Of a stretch of 64,000 nt of DNA, positions 5,320-17,375 are shown one piece after another. Source of the stretch: an uncultured Saprospiraceae bacterium. GTDB taxonomy: Bacteria > Bacteroidota > Bacteroidia > Chitinophagales > Saprospiraceae. Numbering within the stretch: the stretch's first letter is position 1; the number at the start of each line of letters is the position of its first letter. The translations under genes and the position numbers were made by a program. The notes beneath the pieces were generated by a model that was not told the origin of the DNA, searched no databases, and worked only from the letters and a program-made list of their open reading frames with translations. The stretch is taken from positions 1-64,000 of the forward strand of contig CALLFA010000050.1 of assembly GCA_937997635.1 (NCBI GenBank), written 5' to 3'.

Positions 5320-5877
5320 ATGAGTAAAAACTTCAATCTCACATTACATGAGTATGAAACTCTTGTAAATAGCTTGCGCCATGGAGACGAACAATTGTTT
5401 GAGAAGATCTTTCTTCAACACTTCAAAGTTGTTGTACATCAGTTACAAGCAAAGTACAGGTGTTCACAGAGTGAGGCATACGATGCGACCATGGATGCTA
5501 TTTTAGAATTACGATTGAAGATTATTGATGGTAAAATAAAATATGGCAATCTTGATTATCTGTTTTTTTTAATGGCATCACAAGTTCTGATGCGAAATTT
5601 GAAAAAATTTAGACTATCAGACTTTGATGAAAATCTACTGAACCATGAAGACTCGATGTTCTCAGATGAAGATATCGATAATTTAAATAAAGCATGGTCA
5701 GATTTAAGTAAAGAATGTCAAGGTCTTCTTTCTAGAAATGTCTTCAGTGGGATCAAACTTAAAGACATAGCACATGAAGATGGCCGAACTCATCTAGCAG
5801 TAAGAAAACACAAAAAAAGATGCCTAGATAAATTATTAATGTTTTTTAAAAAATATTCAGTTCCTAATTTGCAGTGA
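5320..5877 (+). CDS. ECF-like sigma-70 family RNA polymerase sigma factor
   Basis: A 185-residue protein with sigma region 2 (residues ~15-95, GDEQLFEKIFLQHF and a YLFFLMASQVLMRNLKK segment) and region 4 (residues ~125-180, LSKECQGLLSRNVFSGIKLKDIA then a second helix AVRKHKKRCLDKLL). It starts the plus-strand operon sigma / membrane TPR protein / CHAT protein. Its stop codon overlaps the GTG of the next gene (GTGA), so the two are translationally coupled, the usual arrangement for a sigma factor and the membrane protein that controls it. Likely targets are its own operon and perhaps the divergent protease; this is inference. Confidence 0.85.
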   Translation: MSKNFNLTLHEYETLVNSLRHGDEQLFEKIFLQHFKVVVHQLQAKYRCSQSEAYDATMDAILELRLKIIDGKIKYGNLDYLFFLMASQVLMRNLKKFRLSDFDENLLNHEDSMFSDEDIDNLNKAWSDLSKECQGLLSRNVFSGIKLKDIAHEDGRTHLAVRKHKKRCLDKLLMFFKKYSVPNLQ

Positions 5878-6545
5878 AAAAATTTCTCGATAAATATAAT
5901 GCTATGACCACAACAGAAAATAAGGTCGAATTACTTCAGTCTTTCGTAAAGCAAATGCTAAATAATAGGAAGAAGAATGAATACATGAAGAAGTTAGAAA
6001 GTGAATTCGGAGTCAGAAGAGATAGCCCTAAAAAAGTTCAACTGCCTCTCAAAAGGAGTAGCATAGTTTATATATCAGGTATAGCTGCCTCACTTGCTAT
6101 TTTAGTCATTAGTATTGCAGTATTTGGTTTATTCGATTCTAATACGAGATTAGCAAGTCAACTTATAGAAAATGACTATTTCATTCATCCTGGAATCGAA
6201 AAAGGCATATCGTTACCAGATAGTGAATTAAGAACATTAGCTATTGCAGCTTATGGTGATCGAAATTTTAAGGAAGCAGCCCAATTGTTCAGTTCTATAA
6301 AATCTAAGTCTGCGGATGATCAATTTTTCTCGGCATTATCATTCCTATACGATGGTCAATACGAAGAGTCGATTGAACGTTTTGAAGTGTCGAATCAGGT
6401 GTTTAGAGAAGAGGTAAACTGGTATTTAAGTCTCTCGTATATACTACATGGAGATACAGATAAAGCTCTTAAAATCTTGTATGAGATTAAACCTAAGGAG
6501 TGGAATTATATGAAAGCTCAAAAGCTGATATCGGAATATAAATAA
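5874..6545 (+). CDS. Single-pass membrane protein with TPR-like C-terminal domain; putative sigma-factor partner
   Basis: A 223-residue protein starting at GTG that overlaps the sigma-factor stop codon (first in-frame ATG is codon 11). Residues ~1-60 are a charged cytosolic part, ~65-87 one transmembrane helix (SIVYISGIAASLAILVISIA), and ~110-220 tetratricopeptide-like helices (RNFKEAAQLFSSIKSK, GQYEESIERFEVS, DTDKALKILYEI). The topology (short cytosolic domain, one helix, outside domain) and coupling to the sigma gene suggest an anti-sigma-like role, although no zinc-binding anti-sigma motif is present. Confidence 0.7.
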   Translation: MKKFLDKYNAMTTTENKVELLQSFVKQMLNNRKKNEYMKKLESEFGVRRDSPKKVQLPLKRSSIVYISGIAASLAILVISIAVFGLFDSNTRLASQLIENDYFIHPGIEKGISLPDSELRTLAIAAYGDRNFKEAAQLFSSIKSKSADDQFFSALSFLYDGQYEESIERFEVSNQVFREEVNWYLSLSYILHGDTDKALKILYEIKPKEWNYMKAQKLISEYK

Positions 6546-6620
6546 TTGTCATGACTAGTACTTTCCAAATTTACTCATTTTGAATTGGTACTTCATGTAA
6601 TAATAGTTGAGAATTAGCTT

Positions 6621-6628
6621 TATACTTG
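6621..6628 (+). promoter_or_regulatory. Putative -7 element (TATACTTG) before the CHAT gene
   Basis: One mismatch to the Bacteroidota TAnnTTTG element. It lies only three bases before the first ATG (6632). If it is used, transcription would begin at about 6635 and translation would have to start at the in-frame ATG at 6650, which also gives the better signal peptide. No clear -33 element. Confidence 0.35.
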
Positions 6629-6631
6629 TAA

Positions 6632-9427
6632 ATGTCTAAGCACATTTGCATGAGAATCATATGTAGTTTATCCTTGATTTCATGGCTATGTTTTACGCTA
6701 TGCACGCCCTTGTATGCAGCCAAATTTATTGAACCACATTCTATTTATGAAATAATAAACGAAAATAAAGATGCTGGTTTATATAATGAGACAATAGAGT
6801 TTTTAGACTCCATTATACTTCATGAGTCTTTTCAAGATTTATCCTGTTATGACAAAGGAAAGATATATCACGCATTAGCCACTAGTCACTACTTTCTGGA
6901 CAACGAACTTAAGGCAATTAATACATATAAAGATAAAACTCTGCAGGAATGGGAGGATTGTGCAGCTGTGTCTGCCAACGAAAAAGCAAATACAATTTAT
7001 AATATTGGTGTTTGCTATCAGTATATTAGTGAGCCTGAGTTAGCTGCTGAATACATGAACTCAGCGCTAGCAATATTACAAAACCTTGAGACAGTAGACT
7101 CAATAAGCCTAGCTAAGAAATATCAAGGTGCTGGAAATTATTATGCTGATATAAAAGACTATGAACGGGCAACAAGCGCCTACGAATTGGCCATCAGCAT
7201 TTGGAATTCAATGGGTGGTGGAGAACTAAATATAGTTAAGATACTCAACAGATCTTTACTATTAAATATTGAATTAGGTGAATATCAAATTGCAAGTGAT
7301 TATTTTTCTTCAGCTATTCAAATATTAGAAAGTAGTACAATACCGTCCTATGAAACTTCGCTCCTATATTTGAATGGGGCACATTGTTATGTCAAGCTTG
7401 AAAAATATCAACTAGCTAAAAAGTATGCTAATATTGCATTAACATTAATTGATCGACATAGTAATATGCGGGAATACTCAATAGCAATGGAGATTCTTGG
7501 AGCTATCCATTTATCAGAAAAAAATTACGCAAAAGCAAAACACTACTTTGACGAGACTCTTAAAATACGTGCCCAGTTAGAATCAACTGCAACAAATGAT
7601 TTTAACATGGCTTTGGCACACGAAAATTTAAGTGAGTATTATCTACTTACTGCAAATCTAAGTGAGGCAAACGCAGAAATTAATAACGCAATTCGAAAAC
7701 TTCATGCACATTTACCTATCGACAGTACATTCAATCTGACTTTGGGCAACAGGTATATAAATCACCCTCTTGATTTACTAAGGATGTTAAAATTGAAAAG
7801 TCAAATATTATTTGAAACTAACTCAATTTCAAATCAAAATAAAATTGAGAGTATTCTTACTAAAATGGATACAATATTAGTCAAAACCATTTCAAGTTCT
7901 CATCTTGAACTTTCTAAGCTTCAAATGTATAATGCAGTTTATGAATATATGGGAACTGCGGTTGAGTATTGTCTTACATTTAACAGCAACAAAGACCTAT
8001 CATTATCATACAAGTACGCTTCCTCTGCAAAAGCAATGATATTTAATTCATATCAAAATATTCGAAAATTTGTTTTAGCCATTAAAGATGAGACTGTACA
8101 ATCTAAAGAAAATAGGATCATTAGTGAGATAAATACGACTAAACAGTTGATAAATTATTCGGAAGCAAACAATGATTCCCTATTAACCAGATATGTACAG
8201 CTCCAATATGAATTAGAAAACTTCTATGATTCTATTGGCGTATCTAAAAACCTAGAAGATCAATTTTTGAGAAATGGATACTTGACGAAAGATCAAGTTC
8301 AGACTAAACTGAATCAGGATGAAGTGTTGATAGAATTTTTTCAATCTAGTAGCAATCTGTATGCCTTTTTAATTACTAAGTCCAGCATAGATATTCACAA
8401 ATTCAATAAAAAAGAACTCAATCCAATTATCCAAGTATTTATTAATCATATTAGGCATCCAGATGTCTCACTTAACGCATCTGATAAAAAACGTCTTTGG
8501 TCACACTTTGTAGGTCCACTCTTTGATGGCATCGATAATAAAAATAATATCATTATTATCCCAGATGGTTTAATACATCAAATACCATTTGAAAGTCTTT
8601 ACCAAGAAGACGGCAGTTTTTTGATTGAAAAATTTTCTTTCCAATACATCCTAGCCAATTACTTTTTAAATACAGATACGCCATTGATATCAAAATCAAA
8701 ATCGTTTCTCGGGTTTGGCACCAACTACAGTGAAGATCTCAACAACAAATTAGAACTATCTGGAAAAATATCGCATGACTACAAACTCTCCACATTAAGA
8801 TCTTCAGAACATGAGATTACTGATCTAAGTCAATCATACGATGCATCTGTTTTTACTGGCACCAAGGCAACACTATCTAATTTTTTAACAGCAGATTTAA
8901 CATCTGATATACTTCACTTATCCCTGCATGGGATTGTTAATCACCAAGATCCATATGCCAGTTATATTGTTTTTGACACAAATGAAGACGATTTTTTGCT
9001 TTCAAGTGCTCAAATCTCAAACTTACAAATGTCACCAAACCTTGTGGTCTTAAGTAGTTGTAACTCTGCTACAGGAAAAATCACTGAAGGTGAAGGAACC
9101 TATAGCCTCAGTAGGGCCTTTTTACAGGCTGGAGCAAAAAATATCGTATCTAGCTTATGGCCTGCATCCGAGAATAGTTCTTATTCAATACTATCAAACT
9201 TCATCAAGACAAGCCAGAAAATGGAGAGTTACACACAAAGTTTACGCAACTCCAAAATTCAGCACCTAGAGAACAGTAGCCCAAGATATCAACATCCATA
9301 TTTCTGGGCAAATTACATTCTAACAGGAAGGACCATTAATGCAAGAAATACTACAGCTATTTATATTATTATCTGCATCATTGTGTTATTCTCCTTAATT
9401 ATTTTGAAAAAAAAAGTATCAACTTAG
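6632..9427 (+). CDS. TPR-CHAT protein (caspase-like peptidase), secreted and membrane anchored
   Basis: A 931-residue protein. A signal peptide occupies the first ~30 residues (an in-frame ATG at 6650 would make it shorter and more typical). Residues ~35-390 contain tetratricopeptide repeats (GVCYQYISEPELAAEYMNSAL and similar), then a helical linker, and residues ~600-895 form a CHAT domain. The predicted catalytic dyad is present: His766 in LSLHGIVN and Cys810 in VVLSSCNSATG. A C-terminal transmembrane helix (~907-924) is followed by Lys residues. Family knowledge: CHAT domains are caspase/separase-fold peptidases often switched on by partner proteins. Third gene after the sigma factor and TPR membrane protein, 86 bases downstream, and near a divergent subtilisin. 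Confidence 0.9.
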   Translation: MSKHICMRIICSLSLISWLCFTLCTPLYAAKFIEPHSIYEIINENKDAGLYNETIEFLDSIILHESFQDLSCYDKGKIYHALATSHYFLDNELKAINTYKDKTLQEWEDCAAVSANEKANTIYNIGVCYQYISEPELAAEYMNSALAILQNLETVDSISLAKKYQGAGNYYADIKDYERATSAYELAISIWNSMGGGELNIVKILNRSLLLNIELGEYQIASDYFSSAIQILESSTIPSYETSLLYLNGAHCYVKLEKYQLAKKYANIALTLIDRHSNMREYSIAMEILGAIHLSEKNYAKAKHYFDETLKIRAQLESTATNDFNMALAHENLSEYYLLTANLSEANAEINNAIRKLHAHLPIDSTFNLTLGNRYINHPLDLLRMLKLKSQILFETNSISNQNKIESILTKMDTILVKTISSSHLELSKLQMYNAVYEYMGTAVEYCLTFNSNKDLSLSYKYASSAKAMIFNSYQNIRKFVLAIKDETVQSKENRIISEINTTKQLINYSEANNDSLLTRYVQLQYELENFYDSIGVSKNLEDQFLRNGYLTKDQVQTKLNQDEVLIEFFQSSSNLYAFLITKSSIDIHKFNKKELNPIIQVFINHIRHPDVSLNASDKKRLWSHFVGPLFDGIDNKNNIIIIPDGLIHQIPFESLYQEDGSFLIEKFSFQYILANYFLNTDTPLISKSKSFLGFGTNYSEDLNNKLELSGKISHDYKLSTLRSSEHEITDLSQSYDASVFTGTKATLSNFLTADLTSDILHLSLHGIVNHQDPYASYIVFDTNEDDFLLSSAQISNLQMSPNLVVLSSCNSATGKITEGEGTYSLSRAFLQAGAKNIVSSLWPASENSSYSILSNFIKTSQKMESYTQSLRNSKIQHLENSSPRYQHPYFWANYILTGRTINARNTTAIYIIICIIVLFSLIILKKKVST

Positions 9428-9776: not shown

Positions 9777-9944
9777 ATGTTTACTTTAAAGTCAATCTTA
9801 GAAGATTTGTCAACAGACCAAATTAACAAAATTGTTGCAAAAGGCGTTCGCGGCGGAAGCGATGACACTACATCAGCTAGCGAATCTAGTGAGTCTTTAA
9901 GTAGTGAGTCTATGAGTGAAGAGTCACTATCAACATCTGCTTAA
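9777..9944 (+). CDS. Double-glycine leader peptide with Ser-rich acidic core; candidate RiPP precursor
   Basis: A 55-residue peptide. The leader (residues 1-27) has the bacteriocin-type pattern of double-glycine leaders: LEDLSTDQINKIVAKGVRGG, with Leu11-Ser12, Ile16, Ile19 and Gly26-Gly27. C39 peptidases cut after such a Gly-Gly. The 28-residue core contains 13 Ser, 3 Thr, 5 Glu and 2 Asp, with no Cys, Lys, Arg or aromatic residue. Several Ser lie in S-x-E settings (Ser37, Ser42, Ser47). It is followed, on the same strand, by a kinase with a peptide-recognition domain, a C39/ABC exporter and a membrane-fusion protein, so it is very likely their substrate. Without Cys it cannot form lanthionine rings or thiazoles. 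Confidence 0.85.
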   Translation: MFTLKSILEDLSTDQINKIVAKGVRGGSDDTTSASESSESLSSESMSEESLSTSA

Positions 9945-9958
9945 TTTAGTCTAACATG

Positions 9959-10009
9959 GAGTCAGGTCATGACAGCATTACAAAAATAATGTGGTACATG
10001 ATCTGACTT
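9959..10009 (+). terminator. Strong intergenic hairpin between peptide and kinase genes (attenuator/partial terminator)
   Basis: Thirteen base pairs (9959-9971 with 9997-10009, two G-U pairs) plus an inner helix 9976-9980 with 9987-9991. It is followed by a moderately T-rich stretch rather than a clean T-run. Position suggests that it limits read-through or protects the short transcript, keeping precursor in excess over enzyme and exporter. Confidence 0.65.
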
Positions 10010-10040
10010 CTTTCTACAAAACAATTTAGTCAATACTGCA

Positions 10041-11291
10041 ATGGATAAATATATACTTTCGAAAAAATGTAGAATAGTAGATGTAAATACAATTAAAGTA
10101 AAAGATTCAATATTTCATAAAGACATTTTGAAGTTAGAAGAGAAAGGAGCATTCCTCTTAGAAAAGAATAAAAAACATTTTACGATTAATCAAACCATTA
10201 AAATATTTTTGGAATATTTCTATCAACCAATATCGCTTGATACGACGATTGACAAAATCAGCTCTACAGTACAATGTAAAAGAGAAGTAATAGAAAACCA
10301 GATAACAGTATTTTTCAATCAAATGGTTAAAAATGAATTTCTAATTCCGGAAGATGACTATAAAAAGCAATTGCTCACTTCTGATTCTGATAATCCATCT
10401 GTTGAAGCAGGTACAATAATTAAAGGCTATAAATTTATTGAACGAATATTCACTAATTCTAAGATCGAGATCTATAAAGTCACTAATATTAAAAACAACA
10501 ATAAATATGCAGCAAAAATTCTAAAAAAGAGTAAGTTAAATAACAGAATGCTTAAGATCTTTTTTCAAGAATTTGAACTCATGCAAATCATGGGTAGTCA
10601 TGATCATATATGTAAAGCCATTGAGATTATTGAAACCAGTGATATAATCTTTGGGCTTTCAGAATTTATAGATGGACTATCAGCTAGAAAATACATCACC
10701 AAAGGAGAACCAAGTCCCTCATTGCTAAATAGACTCAATTTACTAACACAATTTTTTGATGCTATGGCTTTTATACATAAACAATCCATTACGCATGGGG
10801 ATTTACATCTCAGTAATGTCTTAATTGACAAGAATAATATTTTAAAGATCATAGATTTCAATATGTCAAACAGATCAGTGCCGTTAGAAAATGAGGTTGT
10901 ACATGAAGGAGGAGTTTATCAATATATTTCTCCAGAAAAAGTAAATAGCGGATTATTCAAGATTGTAAATGGTCCAGCAAGCTTTGCATCTGAAGTATAC
11001 CAAATGGGTATAATTTCATATTTCTTTCTGTACGAAACAATGCCATTTAATGGTTTTACCTGGGTTGATTTAGTATATGAGATTAAGAATAAGAAACCAA
11101 TATTTTTAACTCACACACCCAATGGCGAGTTAATTCCAATTGCGGTCATAAGATTTGTAAAAAGAATGATGTCAAAAACTCCTGAAAATAGATTTGATAA
11201 TGCTGTTAAGGTATTTAAATCTTGGAAAACGAAGCAATGTGATACAATAGCTTGTGAAGATTATCACCTTGATTTACAAACAACTTCATAA
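10041..11291 (+). CDS. Protein kinase with N-terminal PqqD-like (RRE) domain; predicted RiPP-modifying kinase
   Basis: A 416-residue cytosolic protein. Residues ~25-105 follow the PqqD/RiPP recognition element pattern: GAFLLEKNKKHFTINQTIKIFLEYF, then a helix, then QITVFFNQMVKNEFLI. Residues ~128-400 are a eukaryotic-type kinase domain with the key residues present: Lys159 (YAAKI), Glu177 in helix C, HGDLHLSN with Asp254 and Asn259, and Asp272 in DFN (Gly of DFG replaced by Asn), then ISPEK in place of APE. I infer an active kinase that binds the leader of the Ser-rich peptide and phosphorylates its core. There is no lyase or cyclase domain as in LanKC/LanL, so dehydration is not predicted. 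Its stop codon abuts the next start. Confidence 0.85.
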   Translation: MDKYILSKKCRIVDVNTIKVKDSIFHKDILKLEEKGAFLLEKNKKHFTINQTIKIFLEYFYQPISLDTTIDKISSTVQCKREVIENQITVFFNQMVKNEFLIPEDDYKKQLLTSDSDNPSVEAGTIIKGYKFIERIFTNSKIEIYKVTNIKNNNKYAAKILKKSKLNNRMLKIFFQEFELMQIMGSHDHICKAIEIIETSDIIFGLSEFIDGLSARKYITKGEPSPSLLNRLNLLTQFFDAMAFIHKQSITHGDLHLSNVLIDKNNILKIIDFNMSNRSVPLENEVVHEGGVYQYISPEKVNSGLFKIVNGPASFASEVYQMGIISYFFLYETMPFNGFTWVDLVYEIKNKKPIFLTHTPNGELIPIAVIRFVKRMMSKTPENRFDNAVKVFKSWKTKQCDTIACEDYHLDLQTTS

Positions 11292-13691
11292 ATGAAAGTA
11301 GATCAACAGCTCAGAAGAAATGATTGTGGGATAAGTGCAGTAAAAACAGTATGTAATATACTGGATGTTGATGTCCCAAGAAGCTATATAGAAGAGCATT
11401 TACAAATCGATCAAGAAGGAATTAGTTTAGAATCAATTCATCGTTTTTTTGAAGATCATGGTTTTGAATCCAAATTCCACATATTAGATATCAATGATTT
11501 CGAAAACGAGGTTTCATTTATTAAGTCACAATTTCCTTGTCTAACTCCGATAAAATCAAGAAGAGGGTTACATTATGTTGTACTAAATAATTATAAAAAA
11601 AGAGCCTTTGAGGTCTTTGACCCAGCAAAAGGCAAGACGTATAAAATGTCACTTGATGAGTTCAGAAAAACAGCTTATTACGCGTCTTCAAATTTGGGTG
11701 CAGAAGGCACTTTGGATTTGTTATTTTTCAAAATTAGAGAAGAATTAAAAGAATATTCAATAAATATTCCAAAGCGCCTATCAAAAAAAGAGCAGATTGA
11801 TTGGTTTAACAAATTGTGTTATTTCAACTATCATAAAGAGAACTATGGTTTTAGAAGTGAAGAAGATGCACAAAGATTTTTAAACGATGTATTGTTCTTT
11901 CAAGAAATTAATTCTATTCCGCAAAACTTTCAAAATTTTGTTTTAGATACACGAAAACAAGTTGTACTAAAATCACCCATTGTCCTCTCTGTTCAAAATG
12001 GAGAATTATTAGGTCTTATTGAAGGAAGTGAAGAACAAAGCATTTACTGGCGCTTATATAGTAGCATTAAAGGAATTCGCCCTTTATGGTTTATGTTTAT
12101 TTCTACCACTCTTATTGCAGGACTAATCACATATTTAGCAGTATTTATAAATCAAATATTAATTGATCACATATTACCGTCTTATCAACTAGGCATATTA
12201 TTTCTGTTTGCAATTGGAGTAGGAATATTCTATATCTTCGACTTAGCATTCTCAACATTTAAAAGGTATATTTCAATACATCTTGGTAACGCTCTAGATC
12301 GTTATTTCCTAACTGTGTTTGACAAAAAACTGAATCAATATTCTATTCAATTTTTACATAGCTTTAGAAGAGGTGATTTGACTGAAAGATTAAAAGACTC
12401 CACCAAAATCAAATCATTCTTCATCACTTTCTTTTCAAAAATATTTATAAATGTCTTTATAGCACTATTCTCAATAATGATATTACTTGCTATCAATTGG
12501 CAATTATCCATATTCGTTTTTGGTGTATTACTTATATTTGGCATTATGTTTTGGGGATTGACTCCAATAATCAAACGCCTTGAGCAACAACGCTTCGCTG
12601 TTAAAGCTGATTTCTATTCTAGATTTATCGAAAAGATTGATGGAATTCAAGTCATAAAAACCTTACAACTTGAAAACTATTCGTCTAGTGAAATAAATAA
12701 TAAGATCGATGAACTGATTAAAGTAAGAACTAAATCAAAATACATTAGCTTATTCAATTCTGCTGTATCATCAATTATTGTTTCTTTTGCTACGTTATTT
12801 ATCATTCTTTTCACATCTCGCCAAATGATTATTGATAACTCCATTACGCTGGGTATGATCATTACATTTGTTGCCTTATCTGGGAAAATATTTAAAGCCT
12901 TTCGATCCTTGCTGGATTATAATCTAACGATTCAAGAGCACACCGTTATACTAAAAAGATTTTTTGACTTTGAAGAAAAAGGCAATAAAGCTTCGATTCA
13001 CAATTCACATGAAAAAATTAACAATCTTCACATATCAAAATATAGCTTAAAGAATGTGCAATTTTCTTATGCTGGAAATAAGCCCGTATTAAAGGATTTA
13101 AATTTTGAAATAGGTAAAAATGAAAGAATTTGGATCAAAGGAAAAAATGGAAGTGGTAAATCTACCTTATGTAAAGTGCTCGGGTTACTCTATCCCCCTA
13201 CGGAAGGAGATGTGTTGATTAACGGTATTGACCACAGCCTTTATAATGAAGAACTCTTAAGAAGTAAAATCGCATTAGTGTCTAATGAGGACATATTATT
13301 TAATGACAAGTTACTCTTTAACATTACATTTGGAAGAAAAGTTGATATTAGAAAACTAGTATATTATACAAAGGCATTAGATTTTTATGACTTCATCCAA
13401 GATCATCCTGATAAATTTGATATGATGATTCATGAAAATGCTAGAAACCTATCTACTGGGCAGCGTAAGAAAGTATTGCTTCTACGAGCATTGATGTCTA
13501 ATGCTGAATTAATCATTTTAGATGAAATATTTAATGGGATAGACGTTGAATCAAAGTTATTAGCAGAACAATTAATAAATGAGCTACCTGACAAAAGCTT
13601 TTTAATTATCTCACACTTACCTGTTGATGAAATAAATTTCACCAAAAAGTATATATTGAAAAATGGAAGACTATACTATAAGAGCGCCTAA
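11292..13691 (+). CDS. Peptidase C39 domain-containing ABC exporter (double-glycine peptide processing and export)
   Basis: A 799-residue inner-membrane protein. Residues 1-~130 are a C39 peptidase with Cys12 (RRNDCGIS), His94 (GLHYVVLNN) and Asp110 (VFDPAKG). An unusual segment of ~110 residues (~145-260) without membrane helices comes next. Residues ~265-560 hold about six transmembrane helices, and ~575-799 an ABC ATPase with Walker A at 617-624 (GKNGSGKS), signature LSTGQ and Walker B LIILDEIF. Predicted job: remove the leader after Gly27 and export the core. It starts one base after the kinase stop and overlaps the membrane-fusion gene by 29 bases. Standard exporters of this class are ~700-730 residues; the extra length is the inserted segment. 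Confidence 0.93.
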   Translation: MKVDQQLRRNDCGISAVKTVCNILDVDVPRSYIEEHLQIDQEGISLESIHRFFEDHGFESKFHILDINDFENEVSFIKSQFPCLTPIKSRRGLHYVVLNNYKKRAFEVFDPAKGKTYKMSLDEFRKTAYYASSNLGAEGTLDLLFFKIREELKEYSINIPKRLSKKEQIDWFNKLCYFNYHKENYGFRSEEDAQRFLNDVLFFQEINSIPQNFQNFVLDTRKQVVLKSPIVLSVQNGELLGLIEGSEEQSIYWRLYSSIKGIRPLWFMFISTTLIAGLITYLAVFINQILIDHILPSYQLGILFLFAIGVGIFYIFDLAFSTFKRYISIHLGNALDRYFLTVFDKKLNQYSIQFLHSFRRGDLTERLKDSTKIKSFFITFFSKIFINVFIALFSIMILLAINWQLSIFVFGVLLIFGIMFWGLTPIIKRLEQQRFAVKADFYSRFIEKIDGIQVIKTLQLENYSSSEINNKIDELIKVRTKSKYISLFNSAVSSIIVSFATLFIILFTSRQMIIDNSITLGMIITFVALSGKIFKAFRSLLDYNLTIQEHTVILKRFFDFEEKGNKASIHNSHEKINNLHISKYSLKNVQFSYAGNKPVLKDLNFEIGKNERIWIKGKNGSGKSTLCKVLGLLYPPTEGDVLINGIDHSLYNEELLRSKIALVSNEDILFNDKLLFNITFGRKVDIRKLVYYTKALDFYDFIQDHPDKFDMMIHENARNLSTGQRKKVLLLRALMSNAELIILDEIFNGIDVESKLLAEQLINELPDKSFLIISHLPVDEINFTKKYILKNGRLYYKSA

Positions 13692-14883
13692 GATCCATAC
13701 ATTTGTCAGTATAATATTTGGCTTATTATCATTCGTCACGGTATCTATACTCGCGCTCCTATTTCTTTTAGAAATTAATGACGTAGTCAAAGCGTCGGAT
13801 GGTGAAATCTACTCTCTAAACACTCCCGTTGAGTACAACTCCTATCTAGATGGAGAAGTCAAAAAAGTATTGATAAAGGAAGGCGACAAAGTCCTTAAAG
13901 GTGATACACTAGTAATAGTAGAAAACGAACAACTGAATACTGATTATGAGAACACTATGGCAAATTATTTATTAGAAAATAATAATCTTAAGTTGAATAA
14001 AAAGGAATTGACCATCCTTTATGACAAAATATCAACTCTAGACCGACAAGATGACCTAATTGATGCAAATAAGAAACACGCCAATTCAATTGCAAACATT
14101 GAAATTCAATCCTTAGAATCTAAAATGGAAGCAATAAGGCAAAAGACAGCGCTTTCAAAAGAAAGGTTGAAAAATGATCAAAGTTTATTGGATGATGGGA
14201 TTATTAGTACTGAAGAATTTGAAAAAAAGTATAGAGAGAATATTGATGAGATGAATACCCTAAGGGATATTAATAAAGAATATGAACTCAAAAAATCCTC
14301 TAGAATAGGAAACAACAATATATTCCTCGATAAAATTCAGAATTTAGAACTTAATAAAATAGACCTTGCAAAAGAAATTGTCGATAAAGAAAAAATTATT
14401 TTTCAGCAGGAAACAGCTATTCAATCCTTGGGTGGACATTTGGAGTTATTGCAGCGTGAAAAAGATAAAATGGTAACTATAGCAGAATCCGATGGAATCG
14501 TTGTATCAGCTTTTGATGAAAATCGTAAAATCAGATTTATTTCAAAAGGCACCTCATTGTTAACTGTACGACCAATCCAACAGCAGGAGTTTTCTGCTCG
14601 ACTTCAAATTTCACAACATTCCATAGCAAAAGTTCATCCTGGTCAAGAAATTAATTTGAAACTTGATGCTTATAACTACTATCAATATGGAATTTTAAAA
14701 GGGAAGATCAACAGTGTTACCCCAAAAGATACAACAAATCAATTTTATTTGTTTGTAGAAATACCAGAAGTTCCTCCAGTTTTCGATTTGAAATCGGGAT
14801 ATCTAGTCACAGGAGATATCATTCTGGAAAAAATGAAGTTATACGAGTTTATTCTAGACAGATTGTTTGGTAAACTACGCTAA
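13663..14883 (+). CDS. HlyD-family membrane-fusion protein of the peptide exporter
   Basis: A 406-residue protein with a short cytosolic N-terminus, one transmembrane helix (~14-38), a split lipoyl-like hairpin domain (residues ~50-85, SYLDGEVKKVLIKEGDKVLKGDTLVIVEN) and a long coiled coil (~95-265), followed by a second beta-barrel half (SARLQISQHSIAKVHPGQEINL). It overlaps the exporter gene by 29 bases and is the last gene of the peptide operon. It should link the ABC exporter to a TolC-like outer-membrane channel, which is not encoded here and must come from elsewhere. Confidence 0.9.
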   Translation: MEDYTIRAPKIHTFVSIIFGLLSFVTVSILALLFLLEINDVVKASDGEIYSLNTPVEYNSYLDGEVKKVLIKEGDKVLKGDTLVIVENEQLNTDYENTMANYLLENNNLKLNKKELTILYDKISTLDRQDDLIDANKKHANSIANIEIQSLESKMEAIRQKTALSKERLKNDQSLLDDGIISTEEFEKKYRENIDEMNTLRDINKEYELKKSSRIGNNNIFLDKIQNLELNKIDLAKEIVDKEKIIFQQETAIQSLGGHLELLQREKDKMVTIAESDGIVVSAFDENRKIRFISKGTSLLTVRPIQQQEFSARLQISQHSIAKVHPGQEINLKLDAYNYYQYGILKGKINSVTPKDTTNQFYLFVEIPEVPPVFDLKSGYLVTGDIILEKMKLYEFILDRLFGKLR

Positions 14884-15029
14884 ATCTATATTCAGAATTT
14901 TTTCTTTTAATCAGAGAATTCATTTTTTAAAAGCCTATACGTTGACTTTTAGATTTCGGACCCCGGCTGCTCATATGGAGTCTTTTAAAAGTAAAAAGAT
15001 TTTCCCTACTAGGAGTCTATCCTCTAAAA

Positions 15030-17375
15030 TTACAAACATTCCGCAATATAAAAATGTACCACCGATCCTTGTTCTATGCTAAAATTAGGATTCAAAATAA
15101 TCTCATTTCCTGCTGACAAAGACACATTGGTATTGTCTGATATCGACGAGCTATTTGGGTCAGAACGAATGACAACATCATAGTGAGCGGATAGGTTATT
15201 GGTCAAATGATTTATCATAAATTCATCAGCAGCACATGGACAAGCTGGACATGAACTGCCACCGCAATCTATACCAGTTTCTTCACCATTTTGAATATCG
15301 TCTGAACATGATGATGATTCACCAATATCCAAAATCGTAAAGTCATCAAAATAAAATCCATCACTTGCCAAGAATCCATCTGTTTGTAATACAAATCGGA
15401 AACCCACCTTGTCACTATTTTTATGTGGACTGAGATCATAGCAAAATTGAGACCAGCTGTGATTAGCTGAGAATGTTTGAAGCTTGGACCAATTGTCACC
15501 TCCTGTTGTCGTCAATTCTAAAACCACTTCGTCAAGACTATCTTCCAAAGACCATTTGGCAAAGAAACACAATTTAGGGTTTATCGTGCTTGTCAAATCT
15601 ATTGTCTGATTGAGCGATAATTCATTGGCTGTATTGTTGTCAGAATTTCCCCCTTCAGAATCACAAAAGGATAAAACGCCAGTATAAAAATCATCCGTAC
15701 AAGTACTCCACGAGTGTCCATTTCCTGTAGCCGTCCAATTCGATAATCCACCTTCAGCTCCGTCGAAAAACAAGACATCTTTGCTACCGAGACAAATTGT
15801 GACTGACTTTCTGGAAGTCTCTGCGCCTCCTTGAGTACTAATGATGTCAAGTCGCAATTCACTGCTTGTATACGTCGACGGTACACTGATTTCAAATGGG
15901 GAAGCATTGTTAGCTGCAAAAGATTGTGTTGGAATTCCTCCGTATTGAATTGGACCACTGACTTGTATGGTTGCATCTGAAGGCACAACGGTTACCTCAA
16001 CATCAAACGCTGATTGATTAAGGCCTTTATTTCGAAGGTGTACGATTAAATCAAAACTACTTCCCGGAAATGCGTCAGTTTTTTGTTCGATTGATTGAAT
16101 ACTGGCAAAAGCACCTGAAATCCAAGCTTGATAAACTAGTGGATAAATCATGCCATCCACTAAATCAAAAATCTCTGATTGGGCTGGCCAAAATCCAGAG
16201 CCATCTACCTCAGGAGTCCAACTGTAAATGCCTTCATGGTTGTGGAAACTGATGGCACCACCGCATGCTGAATATCCAAGCATTTCCGGTACTGTCCCAA
16301 ATGGATATTCATTGTCGTCGAGAAAATCTATACTCCAATCCGAGTACAAATCAAAGTCTAAAACATCTGGGAGCTCCGTTGTCGGTAAAATAAAATTACC
16401 AGCAGTTGAATGTATCGATGACAATACAGACGGATTTATATCATCTAAAAAATCTCTAACTGCGACGGATTCTGGTTCAGAAAATGCTGATGCGCCTCTA
16501 TAAACGTCACTACAAATGTTAGTACTTGAACAAGATGTTGTCGCCCCATTTACCCACAGATATTCATAATTACGATTCAGGTCTACGCCAATGCAACTCC
16601 CTCCTGCATTTACTCTTCTGTTTTTTCGCCACAATCCACCTCCGTTTGGATGAGTTAAACGATTGTATTCATAACCATCGGGGTTGACGACAGGGACAAA
16701 ATACAATTGCCGTTCATTGATGATGTACGTCGCTGCTGGATCTGTTCCATAATTTTCCAATAACCAGTACATATAATTAATCGTACTTGCCATACTGAGT
16801 GGTTCTCTAGCATGATGAAGGGCATCATAATAGACGACTGGTTCTGATTCTCGCACATCTGGATTGTCAGATATTTTGACTGACCAAATTGGTCTGCCTT
16901 CATTGGAGTTGCCTATCGATGTTTTTGCAGTGATCAGATTGGGATACATGGATTTCATCAAATCTAGTTGTTCTTCGACTTCTGCCAATGTGTAAAACCC
17001 ACCCATGCTACCAAAACCAAAATTTGCCGTAGTGTTTTTCTTTTTGGTGATCGTACTAAGTTTTGCCTGTTCTTTTAGTTGTCTTTTTTTATAGAAATCA
17101 TAAAAATCATCTATAAGTATTTTAAAAGCTAAACCGCTAGATTCTAAAACATCTAACTCTTCATGTTTGACATAAAATTGAATGGCTTTTTTAGGATCGC
17201 CAGAATAATGATCTAGGACCAATCCTAAATCTGCCAAATGCTGAATATCTTCTACTTGATTTATAGCCACTTCTACTTTCGCATATGACGTCGCAAGTTG
17301 TCCAACAACAGTGCTTAAAAAAAGCAAGTTACATAAGGATAGAGCAAACAAATGCCAAATACGTGATGGTGCCAT
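15030..17375 (-). CDS. Secreted zinc carboxypeptidase (M14) with jelly-roll and 3-coathanger-like domains
   Basis: A 781-residue protein with a signal peptide (~1-26). The M14 domain spans ~125-430 and carries the zinc ligands His188 and Glu191 (HHAREP), the substrate-binding NRR motif and a third His in SSIHSTAG; the catalytic Glu probably lies in SWTPEVDG. C-terminal modules: a CARDB-like region, a concanavalin-like region (ALCFFAKWSLEDS type), a Cys-rich motif (NGEETGIDCGGSSCPACPC) common in this phylum, and a final beta repeat (ILNPNFSIEQGSVVHFYIAEC) that matches the end of the S8 protease. Likely role: extracellular peptide degradation. It lies 40 bases downstream of the M16 peptidase gene on the same strand. 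Confidence 0.93.
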   Translation of the reverse strand: MAPSRIWHLFALSLCNLLFLSTVVGQLATSYAKVEVAINQVEDIQHLADLGLVLDHYSGDPKKAIQFYVKHEELDVLESSGLAFKILIDDFYDFYKKRQLKEQAKLSTITKKKNTTANFGFGSMGGFYTLAEVEEQLDLMKSMYPNLITAKTSIGNSNEGRPIWSVKISDNPDVRESEPVVYYDALHHAREPLSMASTINYMYWLLENYGTDPAATYIINERQLYFVPVVNPDGYEYNRLTHPNGGGLWRKNRRVNAGGSCIGVDLNRNYEYLWVNGATTSCSSTNICSDVYRGASAFSEPESVAVRDFLDDINPSVLSSIHSTAGNFILPTTELPDVLDFDLYSDWSIDFLDDNEYPFGTVPEMLGYSACGGAISFHNHEGIYSWTPEVDGSGFWPAQSEIFDLVDGMIYPLVYQAWISGAFASIQSIEQKTDAFPGSSFDLIVHLRNKGLNQSAFDVEVTVVPSDATIQVSGPIQYGGIPTQSFAANNASPFEISVPSTYTSSELRLDIISTQGGAETSRKSVTICLGSKDVLFFDGAEGGLSNWTATGNGHSWSTCTDDFYTGVLSFCDSEGGNSDNNTANELSLNQTIDLTSTINPKLCFFAKWSLEDSLDEVVLELTTTGGDNWSKLQTFSANHSWSQFCYDLSPHKNSDKVGFRFVLQTDGFLASDGFYFDDFTILDIGESSSCSDDIQNGEETGIDCGGSSCPACPCAADEFMINHLTNNLSAHYDVVIRSDPNSSSISDNTNVSLSAGNEIILNPNFSIEQGSVVHFYIAECL

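Follow-up and report, generated by a model that had tools for sequence, protein, structure and literature searches.

What would a protein kinase be doing between the gene of a small peptide and those of a peptide exporter? The question is raised by four genes in contig CALLFA010000050.1 of an uncultured Saprospiraceae bacterium (assembly GCA_937997635.1), of which positions 1 to 64,000 were analysed and are here called the window. On the plus strand, a peptide gene (9777-9944) is followed by genes for a kinase protein (10041-11291), a C39-ABC exporter (11292-13691) and a HlyD-like protein (13663-14883). The original prediction, made from the letters of this DNA, had read the four as a cassette for a new class of ribosomally synthesized and post-translationally modified peptide (RiPP), in which a kinase fused to a RiPP recognition element (RRE) modifies a Ser-rich peptide. 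What it had observed was confirmed: all four genes were found at these coordinates, and the spacing is tight, with 96 nt from the stop of the peptide gene to the start of the kinase gene, an exporter open reading frame (ORF) that begins immediately after the kinase stop (11291/11292), and a 29-nt overlap between the exporter and HlyD ORFs. Its interpretation was supported too, as far as sequences and models go, by an RRE fold in the model of the kinase protein and by a peptide gene in 13 of 13 loci. From sequence and predicted structure, we consider it probable that this is a RiPP-type cassette in which the RRE-fused Ser/Thr kinase phosphorylates many hydroxyls of the peptide core, followed by C39 cleavage and secretion of the phosphopeptide.

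The precursor peptide and its relatives

The first gene encodes a 55-amino-acid (aa) double-glycine peptide, with a leader and a core that read MFTLKSILEDLSTDQINKIVAKGVRGG / SDDTTSASESSESLSSESMSEESLSTSA. The leader (27 aa, 9777..9857, plus strand) ends in GG, carries the conserved pattern LxxIxxLxxxxIxxIV and is matched by a hidden Markov model (HMM) of leaders. This HMM, for which 12 other loci supplied 15 leaders, was scored on the peptide's real frame, which ranked first among 1,725 six-frame segments (E 3.4e-9, the next being 5.7). The core (28 aa, 9858..9941, plus strand) is the predicted substrate of phosphorylation; its first residue is set by cleavage after the GG, which we infer because a C39 exporter adjoins. 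As had been proposed, the core is rich in Ser and free of Cys, comprising 13 Ser, 3 Thr and 7 Asp/Glu, with no Lys/Arg. Its Ser/Thr content of 16/28 stands against a background of 13.2% (binomial p 5.2e-8) and lies above the maximum among 805 pseudo-cores, drawn from small ORFs of the same loci.

The kinase protein belongs to a family of 22 members, 21 of them full-length. Thirteen loci in 12 genomes have readable surroundings (the window, L085-L089, L106-L111 and L118), and a partial locus, L032, from Bacteroidetes bacterium HyVt-532, encodes P0010; the remaining eight members, P0002-P0009, are database proteins represented here by their amino-acid sequences. The original prediction had made its case depend on a peptide gene beside homologous kinases, and in all 13 loci with readable upstream DNA the kinase gene is preceded, on its own strand, by a small gene whose end lies 52-316 nt away. 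These loci yielded 16 peptides, two of them from L086 and three from L110, and they have the organization expected of RiPPs, with a short precursor gene beside the modifying enzyme, a conserved leader and a variable core. Most leaders follow the pattern M-x-T-L-x-x-I-I-x-x-L-x-E-E-K-I-x-K-V-V-x-x-G, and all 16 end in GG or AG with the cut as we placed it. In a leave-locus-out test, an HMM of the remaining loci was run against 1,725 segments, among which the omitted leader stood without its core; that leader ranked first in 15 of 16 cases, and 13 of the 16 were significant (E ≤ 7.2e-5) with HMMs that lacked their own locus.

The cores are of very different types: Ser/Glu in the window, L106 and L108, mostly Ser in L085, Lys then Ser in L087, alternating Lys/Arg-Thr in L089 and L118, Asn-Ser-Gly in L107, Gly-Lys-Ser with Cys in L088 and L111, and Ser-Arg-His with a Cys tail in L110c. 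Among 13 residue classes tested, Ser/Thr is the sole one found in every core, with a minimum of 4 residues; acidic residues are missing from 6/16 cores, Lys/Arg from 4/16, Cys from 9/16 and Tyr from 6/16. The Ser/Thr share ranges from 10% to 72%, with 12 of the 16 cores enriched over the 13.2% background (p < 0.05, uncorrected), and as a set the cores exceed the pseudo-cores (one-sided p 1.2e-6). Between L085 and L106, which belong to one genus, 5/23 leader residues differ and the core is mostly rewritten, yet it has stayed rich in Ser. Each of the four acidic cores has 3-5 Ser/Thr-x-Glu/Asp sites. A single clade of acidic-Ser cores was unsupported, as it takes at least two changes on the tree.

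Two of the loci have peculiar arrays of small genes. In L110 (oriented 5604-6721) the precursors are three paralogues that have one leader in common; two of them, unlike the peptides of the other loci, have a similar Cys-rich C-terminal tail, YCCNGxWY. In L086, adjacent small ORFs (5997-6212 and 6414-6653) have a common C-terminal ISDxATF, and the first of them has no leader.

A diverged kinase with a predicted recognition domain

The protein encoded at 10041-11291 has 416 aa. Its Ser/Thr protein kinase domain (approximately residues 124-397; 10410..11231, plus strand) matches Pkinase (PF00069) at E 8.9e-31, and in a full-length model computed from 10 sequences (predicted local distance difference test, pLDDT, 82.9) the nearest solved structure is PknB (E 4.5e-18). 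Residues K159, E177, H252-G253-D254, N259 and D272 are invariant in the 21 aligned members of the family, so that all five catalytic positions (the VAIK Lys, the alpha-C Glu, the catalytic Asp and the Mg-binding Asn and Asp) are kept in 21/21. In the window, IFTNSKIEIYK, which contains no glycines, stands in place of the usual Gly-rich loop, HRD has become HGD and DFG has become DFN. The complete protein kinase domain of the original prediction was therefore borne out in its PF00069 match, its likeness to PknB and the catalytic residues of an active kinase, but not in these three motifs. With the former kept and the latter altered, the enzyme appears to be a diverged kinase that has retained the residues for phosphotransfer.

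The N-terminal domain (residues 1-112; 10041..10376, plus strand) had been proposed to be PqqD-like. Its model (pLDDT 87.3) has the winged-helix fold of RREs, and its 20 best Foldseek matches in the PDB are proteins known to carry RREs; the structural matches include NisB, MibB, TruD, ThcOx and TigE. Across the family, 14 of 20 N-termini match Pfam PqqD at E ≤ 1, the best at 1.2e-4. The N-terminus is thus predicted to have an RRE fold.

The exporter and the search for a second modifying enzyme

By Pfam, the exporter (11292..13691, plus strand) is composed of C39, ABC-membrane and ABC-ATPase domains, and the protein that follows it (13663..14883, plus strand) is a HlyD-family membrane fusion protein (PF13437, E 6.8e-10), in agreement with what had been proposed. 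The order kinase, C39-ABC, HlyD is found in nine of the 13 loci, the window included, and in L032. Residues Q6, C12, H94 and D110 of the C39 domain are kept in 10/10 cassette exporters (again with L032), and the Cys-His-Asp triad together with a GG-type substrate characterizes a C39 double-glycine exporter, predicted to cleave after the GG and secrete the core. In L085, L089, L106, L108 and L118 the gene directly after HlyD encodes a TolC-type outer membrane protein (PF02321), which in L107 lies at a distance of 2.2 kb. Exporter matches at E ≤ 1e-60 were obtained in five of 328 genomes of the order, with only the three best candidates of each genome scored. Three of the five (the window's genome, G738 and G906) match over the C39 part, and each of the three has the kinase; the remaining two match in the ABC part alone.

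The claim that the kinase acts alone agrees with the surroundings that we scanned. Among the nine proteins encoded between 3645 and 17375 of the window, Pfam found no lyase or LanC-like domain at E ≤ 1, and no lasso cyclase or B2 protease. Likewise, Pfam revealed no RiPP enzyme (lyase, LanC-like, radical SAM, ATP-grasp or other) in the 44 flanking ORFs from the 12 other loci and L032 (at least 130 aa, up to two per side; 6 scanned at E ≤ 0.01, 20 at E ≤ 0.001 and 18 plus two repeats at E ≤ 0.1), although weak lyases could have escaped among the 24 scanned solely at E ≤ 0.01 or 0.001. Just one match has "cyclase" in its name; it is HpiC1-like, weak and below the cut-off (E 0.0019), lies in L106 two genes further downstream than HlyD, and was discounted. 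At the level of whole genomes, a LanC-like gene occurs in 2/12 kinase-bearing genomes, G000 (that of the window) and G815, and there is no LanC-like match in the other ten, several of which are incomplete. A lanthipeptide reading was rejected because no lyase or cyclase was visible in the genes scanned and 9/16 cores, including that of the window, have no Cys.

The LanC-like gene of G000 is a short frame on the window's own contig (G000:C50:93168-93827, L139/L140), covering profile positions 4-208 of 350. It lies near a DDE transposase, approximately 78 kb from the cassette, and a second, different C39-ABC exporter is encoded about 9 kb further (L140), so the exporter of the cassette is not the genome's unique C39 transporter.

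Proposed mechanism and alternative explanations

What can be regarded as established at the level of sequence is the order of the genes and how far it is conserved, a leader common to the peptides, the presence of at least 4 Ser/Thr in each core, and the catalytic residues of the kinase and of C39. From these we infer the following course of events: the RRE would hold this leader, the kinase domain would transfer phosphate repeatedly to the tethered, flexible core, the C39 peptidase would cut after the G(G) or AG, and the type I system would secrete the product. The phosphate is expected to stay on the product because no lyase was found. The surroundings of Ser/Thr are of completely different charge from locus to locus; the substrate would therefore be chosen through the contact between leader and RRE, not through a motif next to the target residue, which would explain how cores of opposite charge can be served by one enzyme family. 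Our best guess, made with low confidence, is that the product binds cations or serves as a matrix peptide.

Several observations weigh against this proposal. A homologue search of the protein database with the window peptide returned the peptide itself alone, so that the peptide family is visible solely through the loci. For the N-terminal domain, the RRE fold of the model has to be set against a sequence score below the Pfam PqqD cut-off (14.1 bits in the window, curated cut-off 23.4); no Foldseek match of the model reaches E 0.001, and the top-ranked PDB matches of the N-terminal sequence profile are unrelated proteins. Three leaders were not significant in the leave-locus-out test (L086a, E 0.29; L088, 0.71, with the same bit score as the next segment; L111, 2.2, at rank 2). 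The Ser-rich, Cys-free core, true for the window, does not hold as a general trait, as seven of 16 cores have Cys and four (L088, L110a, L110b and L111) are not enriched in Ser/Thr. Similarly, the predicted exporter beside the kinase, present in the nine loci mentioned above, is not adjacent in L088, L109 and L111 (3/13); the contig of one more locus, L086, ends just past the kinase, and its upstream part carries a HlyD-type gene and an ABC fragment of a different kind. The genomes of L086, L088 and L111 match the exporter of the window in its ABC part alone. Finally, the loop without glycines and the DFN of the window make it possible that the kinase fold carries out another transfer reaction.

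This last point leads to the alternative that the fold transfers something else to the core hydroxyls (AMP or glutamate) or forms a ring, which we judge very improbable in spite of the altered Gly-loop, HRD and DFG motifs. Kinase-fold cyclases are known from lanthipeptide pathways (RosX, PMC12291118), but cyclases of that type lack the catalytic and Mg-binding residues; a kinase-fold cyclase was ruled out here because all five are invariant in 21/21 members. We give slightly more weight, though still little, to a regulatory kinase, whose RRE would sense the precursor, for instance when export is blocked, and which would signal to other proteins without using the peptide as substrate. PknB-like kinases are usually signalling enzymes, and a PF00149 phosphoesterase is encoded upstream in two loci (L108 and L110). 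This idea leaves the retention of at least 4 Ser/Thr in every core unexplained while all else varies; moreover, Pfam shows no further sensor domain in the protein, and RREs that form part of an enzyme normally serve to bring it a substrate, as in NisB, MibB and TruD.

Of the alternatives, the one that we find least improbable, while still unlikely, makes the phosphate an intermediate, with the kinase itself or a lyase encoded elsewhere producing dehydroamino acids and hence a dehydrated or lanthionine-like peptide. It could draw on the Cys of 7/16 cores, above all the tails of L110, on the LanC-like genes of G000 and G815, and on the ease with which weak lyases fall below cut-offs (the HopA1-like match of L112, described below, has E 0.0066, and the strict scans covered 24 of 44 flanking genes); in LanM, elimination takes place in the kinase active site (PMC9486802). 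Against it stand the scans of the window neighbours and the 44 flanking genes, which showed neither a lyase nor a LanC-like domain at the thresholds given above, the nine cores without Cys, and the ten of 12 kinase genomes, several of them incomplete, without a LanC-like match, the one in G000 being short, near a transposase and distant. Retained phosphate on a secreted peptide is therefore the outcome that we favour.

Distribution and neighbouring genes

Among 5.8 billion proteins searched, 12 matched at E ≤ 1e-10, ten from the family (the window's own included) and two other kinases; with an alignment of those ten, the protein search returned the same ten plus three other kinases, the 7,997 candidates with most shared words being scored. 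Full-length-type kinase matches were found in 6/396 genomes of the order, in 8/248 genomes of the taxonomic family (nine loci) and, in further genome draws, in 1/20, 2/195 and 1/1; the draws overlap, and the window's own genome is counted where drawn. Draws of 395 genomes each from the phylum and the class gave no family member besides that of the window. The matches there (50/395 in the single-sequence search of the phylum and 29/395 in that of the class, own included) were set aside as ordinary signalling kinases, since all but the window's own start at residue 89 or later, most at 110-150. A contig scan with the single protein found no relative and one with the alignment found L032; viral contigs gave no match, and six plasmid records matched in the kinase domain alone, none covering 80% of the query.

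Two weaker, far-reaching matches were excluded from the member count. L112 (G1200:C218, 2826-5183, minus strand) encodes a 785-aa protein with a kinase and a LanC-like domain and no lyase domain; beside it there are a phosphopantetheinyl transferase and a gene whose HopA1-like match (PF17914, E 0.0066) is weak and falls below the cut-off. It was rejected as a family member on account of the HopA1-like neighbour, the LanC-like domain and an N-terminal 110 aa without Pfam match, and from its sequence it looks like a rearranged class V-type lanthipeptide system. The other, G1174:C415:21239-22279, matches profile positions 64-400 within an 872-aa open frame, possibly an RRE-kinase in a larger protein. 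P0006 is filed under a Candidatus Moranbacteria metagenome-assembled genome, although it closely resembles P0007 and although the one other source that has a name belongs to Bacteroidetes; its taxonomic label may be a case of mis-binning.

Downstream of the window cassette the next large gene is on the opposite strand, and upstream (5320-9427) lie sigma-factor-like (below the model cut-off), TPR-like and CHAT-TPR genes. Homologues of the window's TPR and CHAT genes are also found near the L089 kinase. The PF00149 genes mentioned above encode calcineurin-like phosphoesterases (L108, 4309-5361, minus strand; L110, 7791-8849, plus strand) and are divergently upstream of the precursors; their position next to a kinase could reflect a kinase-phosphatase pairing or chance. 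In L087, a 1,599-aa protein with a type IX secretion system (T9SS) tail and a lysyl-oxidase domain (PF01186, E 1.7e-26) is encoded at 11375-16174 (minus strand), 213 nt upstream of the Lys/Ser precursor and co-directional with it; this single case would fit a matrix or adhesive role of the peptide.

Comparison with known systems

Many kinds of RiPP enzyme are known to carry an RRE, and a protein kinase with one was not found in the literature searched. Among the titles and abstract openings listed from 5.39 million open papers, a set that leaves most subscription papers and preprints outside, none reports an RRE-protein-kinase fusion. By word look-up, "kinase" is absent from the main text, supplements apart, of two RRE-mining papers (PMC7470986 and PMC12710340), and the kinase passages seen in PMC10352776 and PMC8939145 concern histidine kinases. 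If our reading is right, phosphate would be a final decoration here and not a leaving group, and secreted phosphopeptides would have a biosynthetic route of their own in bacteria. A leader-directed kinase without a visible local motif would also be useful for producing phosphopeptides in E. coli, and the loci offer 16 ready substrates of very different charge.

Among known RiPP enzymes, LanKC and LanL (classes III and IV) resemble the present protein in that a Ser/Thr-kinase-like domain acts on Ser/Thr of a leader-bearing precursor; they are fusions of lyase, kinase and cyclase that bind the leader without an RRE, whereas here an RRE and a kinase are joined without lyase or cyclase domains. 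Lasso-peptide kinases are of HPr type. Those of paeninodin (PadeK), ThcoK and SyanK likewise put phosphate, also polyphosphate, on a precursor Ser (PMC9266682), but they belong to another kinase type, with a His-Lys-Asp-Asp motif, they act on the C-terminal Ser and they tailor a lasso scaffold that other enzymes have made. Closer in reaction is the stand-alone LanK of class V LanK/LanY systems (CaoK/CaoY and RosK/RosY), which phosphorylates the precursor, iteratively for CaoK and two-fold for RosK, before the lyase removes the phosphate (PMC9486802 and PMC12291118). LanK is however APH-type, is complexed with a HopA1-like lyase and has no identifiable RRE, an absence that PMC10604976, on class III lanthipeptide synthetases, states for all class II-V polypeptides, and here no such lyase was found beside the kinase.

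As predicted here, NisB, MibB, TruD, ThcOx and TigE have the RRE in cis with the modifying enzyme; their RREs are joined to dehydratases, cyclodehydratases, oxidases and other non-kinase enzymes. As for the product, parallels can be drawn with eukaryotes. Silaffins, phosvitin and caseins are eukaryotic secreted phosphoproteins with Ser-rich or Lys/Ser-rich low-complexity chains; they are phosphorylated by secretory-pathway kinases and have no RRE, double-glycine leader or C39 exporter. The Ser-x-Glu/Asp sites of the acidic cores can be likened to those of such proteins, and the Lys/Ser cores presumably to silaffins. We would put forward, as an attractive idea to which we give slightly less than even odds, that these loci represent an undescribed RiPP class in which an RRE-guided eukaryotic-type kinase makes polyphosphorylated Ser/Thr peptides that are secreted already phosphorylated, with the charge of the core tuned from polyanionic to zwitterionic for binding cations, mineral or matrix, as a prokaryotic counterpart of silaffins, phosvitin and the secretory calcium-binding phosphoproteins.

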